From: Macrocystis pyrifera
Taxonomy: Eukaryota > Sar > Phaeophyceae > Laminariales > Laminariaceae
Assembly: GCA_031763025.1 (NCBI GenBank)
Contig: JASSKH010000014.1
Coordinates: forward strand, 13,377,022 to 13,441,021
DNA length: 64,000 bases
Direction of reading: 5' to 3'
In this document: positions 48,444 through 54,400 of the stretch, piece by piece
Position numbering within the stretch: the stretch's first letter is position 1
Layout: each line of letters starts with the position of its first letter
Notes under the pieces: generated by a model
Databases searched by the model: none
Told to the model about the DNA's origin: nothing
Seen by the model: only the letters and a program-made list of their open reading frames with translations
Program-made: the position numbers and the translations under genes

Positions 48444-51400
48444 TCACTGGGTCTCATCGGCGTCCAACCCCATCTCGACGTTCGCCCAGCCCCCCACCCC
48501 CCCCCCCAACCCCTCTTTAGCGGACATGCCTCTTTCTCCTGCACCCCCACCCCCGTCTCCAGACATGCCGCTAGCGACCGACGAAGCGGAGTGCGAGCGG
48601 TGGGAGTAGCCGTCGAAAGAACCACCTTCCATTCCTCTCCCCCCCCCTCCCCCCGGGGCGTGCTGCATGTGACTCTCTCTGTAGGCACCACTGAAGTCAC
48701 CGTCACCGCCACCCCCTCCCACCCCAACTCCAACCCCACCACCGCCGCCACCCCCACCCCCAACCCCACCGTCACCGCTGACGCCTGCCCCTGCCCCGTT
48801 GCACTTGAGCTGTCCGCACACGTACTTGTTGCATACACCCTGTTCACCGCAAACGGGTTTCGAGCGTCAAGGAAAAACGTTCCGGGTGGAGGCAAGTGCC
48901 CGAAGCGGAAGGGGTGGGGATGGGGCACGGGTGGGGGTGGGGGTGCTCACGTCATGCATGCCCGTAGTCGTATGTCCGTAGACCCTCGCATCCCTACAAT
49001 GCCGGGACGGAGCGCGTCGGGTTGAGAGTACTCATTAGTTGCTCGCCTTCGTCATTTGACCATTGACCATGCTCCCCTGTCGAGACGGGGCACCGTTCTT
49101 ACTCCTGATAGAGACAGACACCTCCACGATTTGGGGGCTCAGCACGTTTTTTAAAGGGTGGGAGATGAGGGCGGGGATGGGGATGGCGGTGGGGTGGGAG
49201 TGAAGGCAAGGGCGGGAGTGGAGTGGGGGGGGGCGGATGGGGGGAAAAACCACCTGCAACCCTTCCCGAAATTCGATTGCGTTGCCGTTCCCTGCATCCC
49301 CAAAGACTCTCAGAAGACCCCGTGCCCGTGCACCCCACCCAACAAGCTATCTGCAGACGTACTGCCGCTTCTCCTTCCCAACACTTTAGGAAAACTCGCC
49401 TGCACCGCTCTTCCTATCATAAATACGCCGGCAGAGAGTTTGCAGTGCTGCTCCCCGACTCCTGAAAACACTCTGGAGAAAACGTCTCGCACTTGCACCC
49501 CTTCCGAAAGCGTCTGTATTAGTCCCACCCCCACTGTCATATCCCATTTTACGCCGGGAAACCCTTCTGTGCGGCTTCCTACACCCAGCTTTCGGCCTCC
49601 ACAATACTGCACTCTACAAACCCCGAGCAAAACCCCGTGCAAGTGCACCCCTCCCAGAAAGCGTCGGACGTCCGACCTATTTTCCCTTCCCCTGAATCAG
49701 AAAAAACCCGCCTGCACCGCCTCCTGTTGACAAGCGCTCGCAGTCCCGATCCCCGCCTCCGCAATAATTTACAAAACCCCGTGCACGTAAGTGCACCTTT
49801 CTCTCTCTCTCGAAAAAAAAAAACCCGGTTTTCTCTCCCGCTCCCTATTATTTCCCAAAAAGTTCACGAAAAATGACGCCTTGCCATCGCTTCCTACTAC
49901 AAGTAGGCCTTCGAGCCGTTACCGTAGAGAGCGAGGGTTGAGTTCGCACAGAGGTATGGTACGATAGCTTTTCAGGAGGTAACGGTGATGAAAAAAAAAC
50001 GCACTTTTTTTCATTTTTTTTTTTCATTCTATATTTTTCGGGAGGCTCTTTCTCTCTCTCTCTCTCTCTCTCTCTCGACCAAGATTTTTTCTTCCAAAAA
50101 AATATATTTTGCGTGTTGGCATTGACACCTTCCCGTGCTGGTAAACAAACAAAATCGAGAGCTGAAAAAAGATCGCACCGCTCTAGTGCAGTGCTAACTC
50201 AGCGCTCTCTACGGCAAACCTCTTCTTTTTTTTTTGGGGGGGGGGGGCTTCAGGGGGGAAAAACATGTCCACACGAACCGACGATTACATAATCGGTCTT
50301 CTCTTCTTTTCTATTTTTAAATCCCCCGGCGGATTGGTAAAAAAATCAAGCATTAAGCTCACCACAATTGCACGTTCATATTTTGGGTCGTGTGTCAATT
50401 TAACCCGTAACTCCCGTTGCTGGTAAACAAGGAACCCTACCACACACCTGCAGCAGCCTATATAGCCTGGTTGAGATTTCTTAGGTTGCCGCACGTTCTT
50501 CCTGCTGTTGCCGCTTTGACAGCACGGCACGTTCTCGCTTTTTTTTTGGTGGTAAGGCGCGAGCCCCCAGACGGCGTACAAGCTTTCCCCCTCCCGACAA
50601 TTTTTTTCATGCGAGTGGTGCGCGAAAACGCGCATATACAGGCTTACTTTACCCCCACATTAAATCAATTGATTGACGCTATCATCCACACGCAAAAAAA
50701 TCCGCCTCAAAAGCGGCTCTTAGTAGCATGCAGCTCACCCTTCATGCGACTCGCCCAACACCTCACGGCGCTTCGCGCTTGGTGCAAGCAATGTCTGCCT
50801 GGTCGGTGAAAACCCGACATGCCCCGTCCCGGCATTGCAGGGATGCGAGGGTCTATGGTCATACGACTACGGCCATGCCTGAGATCGAATATCGAGTACA
50901 CCCCCCCCCCCCCCCCCCCCCCCGAAAAGGTCCAAATGTTATCCGTAACGCTTCATTCTCGCGCAAGTGTTCTCTTAACCTATAAAAGCCATACGCGAGA
51001 TAACACGGAAAAAAAACTCAGCAATGCAGGCATGGATTGTATGACAAAACGACAAAGGCACAAAAAACGACACAACACCCCTGAAAATTCAGAAAAACAA
51101 AAAAAACAAAACCAGTGTGATGGTATTTCTGGGTGAATCACGAAAAAAACATTTATACGTATTTGCAAAAAAATATATACCCACGGTGAAAAACCGACGT
51201 GCTCCGTCCCGGCATTGCAGGGTCTATGGTCATACTACTACTGCCAGGCATGACATTAATACTCCCCCCCTCCCCCCTCCCCCACAAGTTACATCGTAAG
51301 CCCGTTGCTATCTCTGGAAGTGGCCACGCCAGAAAATGAATCAACTCATGGAAGCTGTCACCCGTACGCGAGAAAATCCGCCTCAAGAGCGATTCTCAGT

Positions 51401-54400
51401 AGAATGCAGCTCACTCTTCATGCGACCCGCTCAACACCTCACGGCGCTTCGCGCTTGGTGCAAGCAAGCAGTATCTGTCTGGTCCGTGAAAACCCGACGC
51501 GCTCCGTCCCCGGCATCGCAGGGATGCGACGGTCTAGAGTCGTACGACTACGGCCACGCACGACAATGAGTACCTCCGCCCCCCCCCCCCCCCCCCCCCC
51601 CCCCCCCCCCCCCCCCCCCCCCCCCCCCCCCCCCCCCCCCCCCCCCCCCCCCCCCCCCCCCCCCCCCCCCCCCCCCCCCACATGAGCACTCTGTCTGGGT
51701 CTCGAAACATGGGGTAGTGGGGTGCGGTTTCTTTTTCACACCCTCGATTGACGGGAAGAAAAGGCTAGCTTGACCCTTCATTTTTGTCGCCACTGCCTGC
51801 AACAGTCAACAGTGATCCCACTCGAGTCCCAACTAACGTATTTCCGAAAAAGAGATTGCATTTTTGAAGGGGTTAACGGGTCCATGTCCCCCTCCCCTCT
51901 CGCTTTCGCCCCCCCCAACACTCGAGAAAACCCCACCTGCACCCCTTCCCAGAAACGCTTGTAGTCCGCCAGCCTCTCCTTGAAGCGCTGCAGGAGGCGC
52001 GGCTTGCTCGCGAACGCCACAAACTTCTCCACCAAATCCCCCTTCCTCAAGAGGACGTCGAATATTACCTACCATGGAGAATGCACGCCGCATCGCATCG
52101 CATCGCATCGCATCGCATCGCATCGCATCGCATCGCAGTCGGGTGTTCAGCGTTCGTTTCGCAAGTGCGCGGTAGTTTGGAGGCCCGAGGCAGTGGGTGG
52201 AGGGGGAAGAGCGAAGGGAGGGGGGGGGGGGGAGGGTGGGATACTGGAGGAAGGAACGGAAACAATAAAACGGGTTCGATAGGCGGCAGAATAAGATGAG
52301 GGTTCCGTGGGGAACTTTTTCGTACAGAGGCTTGCTAACTTTGGAAGCCATGCATGCACTCGCCGCTCCAAAAAGCAGCAAATTTTGTAGGCGCAATAAA
52401 AAAAAAGCTACCATTAAAAGCCCTGGCCGAGATTCAACACAGGAGGTAGTAAACACTCGCGGCCTGAAAAGCGCCGGAACACCTCACCAACGTACGCTAC
52501 CACCACTACCACCACCACCACCACCACCACCAACAGCATCATAAAATCGCTACCACTGCCAACGCTAACACCATAAATTACCACTATTACGGGGGTCCAT
52601 AGTTAATAGGACCTATGGTATACATAAAAACCTATACATTAACCTATTTTTACTAACAATATTTGGTCCCATTAACTACGGACCCCCGTAATACATCACC
52701 ACCAAGACGAACAAGACCACTACCGCCACCCCCGCCAATACGAACGTCAACACCACCAACACCAACACCAAGTACCATGGAAAACACGTGAACAGCGCTA
52801 CCTTACCTCGCTGTTGGCCCAGAAGAGGGCGAGCTGCTCCAAAACGCTGTCGACCTCATGGAGCATCCGCAGCGCTCGCTGAACCTCAGTCAAGACCTAC
52901 CGACCAGCCAGGAGCAAGGCGCGCGCGGGGGGGGGGGGGTTGCAGTTAGCAATCAGCTGTTACAATTTCGCATTCTCAACTTCAAATATCACGGGGGACC
53001 ATAGCAATCAGTACTCATTATTTACACAAAAACTTACCATGTATTTCAGTACTTTTAGTAATGAGCATATTTGGTCCAGATTGCCATGTTCTCTCGAAAC
53101 CCGATACGGGTGTACCTAGTTTTTTTTGAGACTTTTTTTCCTTTCACTTGTGTCGCTCTAAACCTCACCCAAAAAACTGACTTTTGTGGAAAAAAAAAAA
53201 AACGAGCGACAGACACGGCGAACAACGCCGTTTCTTACACCATAGCGTACGCATATCACGAAAAACCGCTAAAATTACTGTGTATACACACCTCATTGGG
53301 CATATCGGGATATATCTGTCTACAGATAGATCATCTAAATCCTTCCCTGCCGCTACTTGATGCTGTGAAGGATCTGTAGGGTACAGATCCAACCCAGGAA
53401 ACATGTCCTACATCATGCAGGTTTAGGATACGGCTCCCACTCGGCCACATGAGCTAGATCATTCAGATCATACAGATCATCTGCCCTGAATGATCTATAA
53501 ATCATTAACTGTGGGAACTGATGATCTGTAGATAACACGTCCAAGGTGTGGCGTACTGAGAAGTTCAAAGGGTATCCCAGCGATACTTGGGTAGCTCCGG
53601 GGTTGAGGAGCCGGTCAGTCGAAAATATTTTGACAGAGTGGTAGTGCCCTTATATATCCCCTATCACCTGGCACGTCGCAGCACGCGCAAGGTGCGAAAA
53701 TCCTACTCGCATAAATATGCAGAAAACAGGTTGCAACTCTATAGAAAGAACGCTCGTGGTTTGCACACCATAGTTATAATCTGCACGGGGGGGGATCCGG
53801 ACGAGACGGATCGTGGGAGATCGACAAATATCGGCAAGAGGGGGAGAAGGGGGGGAGGGGGGGGGGGGCAAGCAACGAAAACAACAAACACGACCACCAA
53901 CACCAACTCTTAACACCAGCGCCAACGAAACCCAACAACACCAGCACCACCACCACCACCAATAACGGCAACACCGACACCAACAGCATCGGCATCATTA
54001 CCCGTATCACCGGCAAGCGAACAACAAAAATCGGCGTCCTCCCTCCCCCCTTCCAATACTCTCAATCCCCCCCACTTGCCCCCGAAGCTGCACCTCATGC
54101 CCTGCAACACAGCAGTACTGCAAAAGACTACAAACACCCCCCCCCCCCACCGCTATGAATACCCCGTTGATAGCGCTATTAATAGACTACAGTTAGAGAA
54201 AAACGAAAATTCTTAGAATGTTCTGTACTTTCATATTAACCGAAGAAAAAAAATAAACTTGATTTTAGTATAGAACGCATTATTACAGAGTCTATCGACG
54301 ATTTCCCCAATATTTCTTTCTCCGATCCGCCAAACTCCAGATATTTCGTGCTTTCTTCCACTTTCCCCTCTTTGATAACAAAAATTGTCGAAATATAACA

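Follow-up and report, generated by a model that had tools for sequence, protein, structure and literature searches.

A 64,000-nucleotide (nt) stretch of the Macrocystis pyrifera genome (contig JASSKH010000014.1, positions 13,377,022 to 13,441,021; referred to as the window) carries a repeat family whose copies are usually followed by runs of C. We consider it likely that this family is a retroposon resembling a short interspersed nuclear element (SINE), most likely mobilized by a long interspersed nuclear element (LINE), and that the pair lands at C tracts by target-primed copying. Two elements with a common tail, 5' truncation, C tracts in one orientation on both sides of the copies, head-to-tail arrays, and a few target-site duplications (TSDs) are observed. 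Coordinates are those of the window, and L-numbered loci (L015, L040, L074, etc.) are stretches fetched from the same assembly, which was searched over 537,376,219 bases in 223 contigs.

The first-pass annotation of the window listed eleven segments with a common 3' sequence. A family copy is present at all eleven positions, the one near 977 being weak and degraded (nhmmer E 0.49) and the one listed at 51335 having its true start at 51287. Five additional units bring the total to 16: the unit at 1018 belongs to the SINE-like family, and those at 19456 (plus strand) and at 24306, 49026, and 61140 (minus strand) are LINE tails, members of a second family whose 3' end is related. Behind the window units are two mobile elements, a 512-bp nonautonomous SINE-like element and a LINE, of which the units are the 3' ends. 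The constant right border near GAGTAC was borne out by reading the flanks: GAGTAC itself or a near variant (GAGTGC, GAGCAC, or AAGTAC) closes 12 of the 16 units, the end is degraded in three (949, 19546, and 51184), and the unit at 1018 breaks off before it. Left borders do vary among the window copies, as had been described. The units and the features beside them are as follows.

949-1007, plus strand: degraded SINE-like 3' end (weak), with C30 on the 5' side (911-940) and C10 on the 3' side
1018-1068, plus strand: SINE-like fragment between two C10 runs
17752-17765, plus strand: left TSD, CCCACACTAAAACC
17766-17917, plus strand: 5'-truncated SINE-like copy without a C run, between 14-bp TSDs
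17918-17931, plus strand: right TSD, CCCACACTAAAACC
19456-19524, plus strand: LINE tail, followed by C21 (19525-19545)
19546-19640, plus strand: 5'-truncated SINE-like copy directly after that C21
24306-24490, minus strand: LINE tail, followed by C19 (24289-24307)
38010-38250, plus strand: SINE-like copy from element position ~273, with C13 on the 5' side (37996-38008) and C27 on the 3' side (38251-38277)
45078-45113, plus strand: short 3' end of the SINE-like element, flanked on either side by C-rich sequence
47932-48046, minus strand: SINE-like copy, with C18 on the 5' side (48054-48071) and C37 on the 3' side (47896-47932)
48942-49023, minus strand: 5'-truncated SINE-like copy directly after the LINE tail at 49026-49152
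49026-49152, minus strand: LINE tail abutting the copy at 48942-49023 without a C run
50656-50900, plus strand: SINE-like copy from element position ~279, followed by C23
51184-51264, plus strand: 5'-truncated SINE-like copy, followed by a C-rich stretch
51287-51578, plus strand: 5'-truncated SINE-like copy (element positions 231-512), with the C-rich tail of the 51184 copy just upstream
51579-51679, plus strand: run of 101 C on the 3' side of the 51287 copy
61039-61139, minus strand: 5'-truncated SINE-like copy
61140-61212, minus strand: weak LINE-tail-like unit (E 0.0063; no BLAST match at 1e-3) abutting the copy at 61039-61139 without a C run

Several loci run into coding sequence when followed upstream from the tail of the second family. 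A protein search of the genome returned 5613 candidates, and long open frames are present in many of the 150 matches that were scored. The L074 copy, which spans at least positions 652-4806 of its locus, has 1137 open codons with Exo_endo_phos (E 9.6e-11) and RVT_1 (E 1.6e-29) in one reading frame, and its nearest relatives among solved structures are R2 and LINE-1 proteins. Judged by these APE-like endonuclease and reverse transcriptase domains in a single frame, the second family is an APE-type LINE. It also has the 5' truncation, fixed 3' end, and TSDs of such elements, with truncation being common and TSDs clear in few copies. In L051, the stop of the LINE frame lies in the ATGA of ATGAGTAC, only a few bases ahead of a C run, which leaves the LINE almost without a 3' untranslated region (UTR). 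A 3' UTR this short that runs into a simple repeat is also described for RTE LINEs (PMC2887409); this feature is not unique to the RTE/RTE-X clade. The sole significant match between the SINE-like element and the LINE is the last 74 nt (73% identity, BLAST E 1.7e-4), with an alignment score of 60 versus at most 38 in 500 shuffles. This common tail ends in GAGTAC, usually with a C run next.

Searching the genome with the DNA sequence gave 6105 first-look candidates, of which 40 were scored, yielding 53 matches and 39 fetched loci. A full-length SINE-like copy occupies positions 771-1282 of L040 (512 bp, from TATATTATATACC to AATGAGTAC), and the SINE-like copies of the window are 3' parts of this element. 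Three window copies with a common 5' end had been considered as full-length elements of ~245 bp; we rejected this, as the genomic element is 512 bp and these copies start at its positions 231, 273, and 279. The only frame of at least 40 amino acids (aa) wholly inside the L040 copy encodes 41 aa, and a further frame of 110 aa extends across the left border. The element is short and noncoding and has a 3' end in common with its partner LINE, both of which are SINE characters. Against Rfam, L040 740-1310 had no match at E 5 or below, and nothing in the window reached a gathering score; three weak, unrelated matches (E 0.73 to 6.2) lie at 50600-51720. No tRNA was found in the window, and matches to RNA polymerase III (Pol III) boxes in three ~245-bp 3' parts were not above shuffles (36, 45, and 147 of 300). 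A T11 tract lies inside the element, and Pol III transcription of the whole element is therefore unlikely. A conserved RNA hairpin in the common tail was rejected as a candidate: eight folded pieces and one 245-nt copy were no more stable than shuffles, and none of 12 pairs had changes on both sides. Four family patterns had no match in viral contigs, and two exact 19-mer matches in genome contigs of Mesorhizobium and Rhizobium were taken as chance.

From the 39 loci and the window, we chained 81 SINE-like copies and dropped two near locus ends. Runs of at least six C lie just upstream of 28 and just downstream of 37 of the 39 full or nearly full copies, and of 26 and 29, respectively, of the 35 truncated copies. 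Among the five copies that stop short of the 3' end, the corresponding counts are none and one. For 52 independent copies, defined as those without another copy just upstream, we scored 31 nt around the 5' end, a flank that for a full-length copy falls outside the query. A run of at least six C is present there in 35 copies, versus a background of 4.1% (7671 same-strand positions in the same loci, all over 80 bp away from the nearest copy; binomial p 4e-36), and a G run in none of the 52. The independent copies that are truncated carry a 5' C run in 15 of 24 cases.

The LINE loci were chosen by protein match and are therefore free of selection for a C run. In this sample of the nine best protein matches plus L074, which was chosen for its long frame (seed copy L064 excluded), a run of at least six C follows the 3' end in all ten loci. 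Four of the five loci that contain the 5' end (L065, L067, L068, and L072) have a C run at most 48 nt upstream, a distance that has no matched background; L065 lies within a C run that belongs to another LINE copy. Truncation directly after a C run occurs in all three LINE copies concerned (L051, L052, and L053). This distribution points to insertion at one kind of pre-existing repeat, for which the C tract would be a preference and not a strict rule.

The clearest TSD is the 14-bp CCCACACTAAAACC around the truncated copy at 17766, which has no C run of its own. In L049, the 18-bp CCCCCCCTACTAGTGGGA stands on both sides of a truncated copy, and in L072 both sides of a truncated LINE have CCCCCGTAGT (10 exact bases) preceded by further C's. 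These three TSDs begin with C's, which were therefore already in the target. Weaker cases are L046, L015, L020, and L039, and most copies have no TSD of note beyond the C run; a duplication consisting only of C within a long C tract would be invisible as a TSD. The annotated reading as a retroposon spread by 5'-truncated reverse transcription holds up on the fixed 3' end, the ragged 5' ends, some TSDs, and the genomic LINE with the same 3' end. With 5' truncation and a few clear TSDs, target-primed reverse transcription is therefore the best reading.

The annotation also took the C run to be a tail. This stands insofar as a C run usually follows the copies, but the 5' side has C runs too, even where copies are truncated, and C's are part of the clearest TSDs. 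The run is therefore better read as largely an insertion target, which copying may have lengthened, than as a tail only. The alternative that it is mainly a tail would have the RNA end in poly-C, added or templated, and insert at unselected sites, the 5' C's coming from older tails or a C-rich neighborhood. The 3' run is near universal in the sample and commoner than the 5' run (47 versus 35 of 52), and the 101 C's at 51579 are hard to account for without added C's. We nevertheless consider this alternative unlikely, given how far the frequency of 5' runs in copies without a copy just upstream exceeds background and given the C's inside the TSDs at 17766, L049, and L072, the first of which encloses no C run.

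Several observations weigh against C tracts as landing sites. The excess of TSDs is modest, with the constrained score passing 4 in 6 of 73 copies versus 1.64 expected, and the duplication in L049 may be a tandem one, as the copy and its neighbor are 95.4% identical. The 39 SINE loci are the best matches to a query containing C runs, which inflates the 3' counts. Seventeen of the 52 independent copies have no 5' C run, nor does the LINE in L073. A 3' run is nonetheless present in 14 of the 17, which also fits a tail; a contribution from a tail, or insertion where a tract ends, is thus possible. The 32 copies with both runs have median lengths of 12 (5') and 14 (3'), lengths differ widely among copies, and the predicted correlation of 3' run length with upstream C's is absent (Spearman 0.01). 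Because the TSD statistics are weak, we rate insertion of the SINE-like element and LINE at C tracts as likely and go no further.

Homopolymers of at least 12 in the window comprise 36 of C/G and 8 of A/T, versus none in 30 first-order simulations. Counting both strands, 12 of 49 C runs of at least 10 adjoin a family copy, all in one orientation, whereas 2000 circular shifts of the copies gave a mean of 0.22 adjoining runs and at most 4. Five of the 12 sit 5' of a copy, and two of those five double as the 3' run of the preceding copy. That nearly all copies run straight into C, as first described, applies to the 9 of 16 units with a C run of at least 10 on the 3' side, but the units at 17766, 49026 (minus), and 61140 (minus) have no 3' C run. 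The suggestion that the family could account for the G/C homopolymers of the region is not supported for the window as a whole, where 37 of the 49 C runs have no adjoining copy. In 44 kb of blindly positioned sequence (L050 and L054-L063), there are 9 C/G and 8 A/T runs of at least 12, with the families in one locus; the window is richer than this sample in both C/G runs and family copies. A control repeat family of the window (~100-118 bp, on both strands, at 6620, 7257, 7387, 33124, 40960, 41309, and 52583) has no flanking C run in 7 of 7 copies. A second C-associated sequence, which is not the family, consists of local repeats at 60724-61331 (CTCTCTCT..AACAAAAC..TTTCGTT..) beside C runs of 12-13.

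The C runs without the family suggest that C tracts grow anyway, and together with the wide spread of run lengths they speak for an account in which a few C's suffice for insertion and the long runs on both sides grew later by replication slippage. We find this very unlikely as a replacement for insertion at C tracts, since it still requires a C-containing target, differs only in the timing of tract length, and leaves the mixed C-rich flanks (45078, 61140 minus, and 19456) unexplained. The common C runs without the family would also suit an origin without retroposition, as parts of a larger DNA transposon or as segmental copies beside unstable poly-C by chance, but this is largely contradicted, and scarcely credible, given the near-constant 3' end with ragged 5' ends, the tail common with an element bearing an endonuclease and a reverse transcriptase, the TSDs, and the single orientation toward the C strand.

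Copies of the two families are also arranged one behind another. Among 107 units (87 SINE-like and 20 LINE) in the 39 loci, L062, and the window, neighbors at most 80 bp apart form 42 head-to-tail pairs and no opposite pair, a count for which the choice of loci enriches, and 34 of the 42 junctions hold at least six C. Three LINE-to-SINE joints are without a C run (49026/49023, L062, and 61140/61139, the last with a weak LINE unit). In L062 (809-911, minus strand) and in the window (49152-48942), a LINE tail is joined directly to a truncated SINE-like copy, and template jumping is possible there.

From the anatomy of the copies we infer the nick position, priming by G, a C-ended RNA, slippage, and movement of the SINE-like element by the LINE. 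The LINE endonuclease would nick the G-rich strand of a C tract, and the nicked G tract would prime reverse transcription on the C-ended RNA, proceeding toward the RNA 5' end and often stopping early. The other strand would be cut further on, giving a TSD that begins with the C tract and measures 14-18 bp where it is clearest; if the tract is long, the duplication would consist of C alone, and the copy would have C's before and after it. The tract may also grow through slippage or pairing out of register, and runs beside older copies could become targets in their turn, producing head-to-tail arrays. The complete cycle, in which the LINE and SINE land at C tracts through a G-strand nick and G-primed C-ended RNA and thereby multiply and lengthen their own landing sites, the genome gaining poly-C tracts and unidirectional arrays along the way, is a tentative proposal, plausible but somewhat short of probable.

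The mammalian LINE-1 and Alu pair is the familiar system of this kind, with an APE-type nick, a homopolymer primer that pairs with a homopolymer RNA end, and a SINE moved by a LINE. There, a T tract meets poly-A; the pair described here, with a G tract and poly-C as proposed, would be its mirror image. The LINE/SINE type is known, and the preference for C tracts would be what is new; titles and abstract openings in the open-license literature yielded no description of poly-C tails or targets of retroposons. Within brown algae, Ectocarpus has abundant RTE-X LINEs and an ~600-bp nonautonomous element, RTEX-N1_Ec32, with a common 3' end (PMC12477816). RTEX-N1_Ec32 is, like the 512-bp element, an abundant short nonautonomous element with a 3' end in common with an autonomous LINE and a 5' part of unexplained origin. 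The part of that report covered here does not mention C runs at the elements and has no occurrence of "homopolymer," "poly-g," or "polyg" (PMC12477816). The Ectocarpus elements may be relatives of this pair, the two being likened by description only.

Other comparisons concern the simple repeat itself. In Lepidoptera, RTE LINEs that make microsatellites have a simple repeat directly after a very short 3' UTR (PMC2887409). They resemble the LINE described here in the short 3' UTR with its repeat and in frequent 3'-only truncated copies, TSDs, and a proposed role for slippage; however, their repeat lies between the TSDs and their insertion is described as not sequence specific (PMC2887409), whereas here the clearest TSDs include C's and copies have C's at either end. 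Insertion into existing simple repeats is known for Dong, which uses (TAA)n, and for TRAS, which uses telomeric repeats (PMC2887409, PMC3636483, PMC4640811); they likewise take a pre-existing simple repeat as the target, though not the same one. Dong is a member of the R2 group, which has a restriction-like endonuclease (PMC3636483), whereas the LINE in this study has an APE-type domain.

The gene content of the window is eukaryotic, with carboxyl-transferase exons on the minus strand (19684-28061), in or near which several family copies lie, and, on the plus strand, an FNIP-repeat gene (35500-37434). The window also holds other repeats. Direct repeats at 7683-8834 and 13042-14194 (1153 bp, 99.9% identical, ~5.4 kb apart) look like a young element of long terminal repeat type with little evident coding sequence between them. 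A tandem duplication at 29904-30320 has a 208-bp unit (99% identical), and two regions match their own reverse complement, a palindromic one at 25903-26676 (774 bp, 87% identity) and another at 63537-63803 (~270 bp, 80% identity).

An APE-type LINE with a preference for C tracts would, if confirmed, help to show how far pairing between primer and RNA, as opposed to endonuclease preference alone, decides where such elements land. It would also offer one specific way for G/C homopolymers to multiply within a genome. The assembly offers thousands of candidate copies for such study, with 6105 SINE-like and 5613 LINE candidates at first look.

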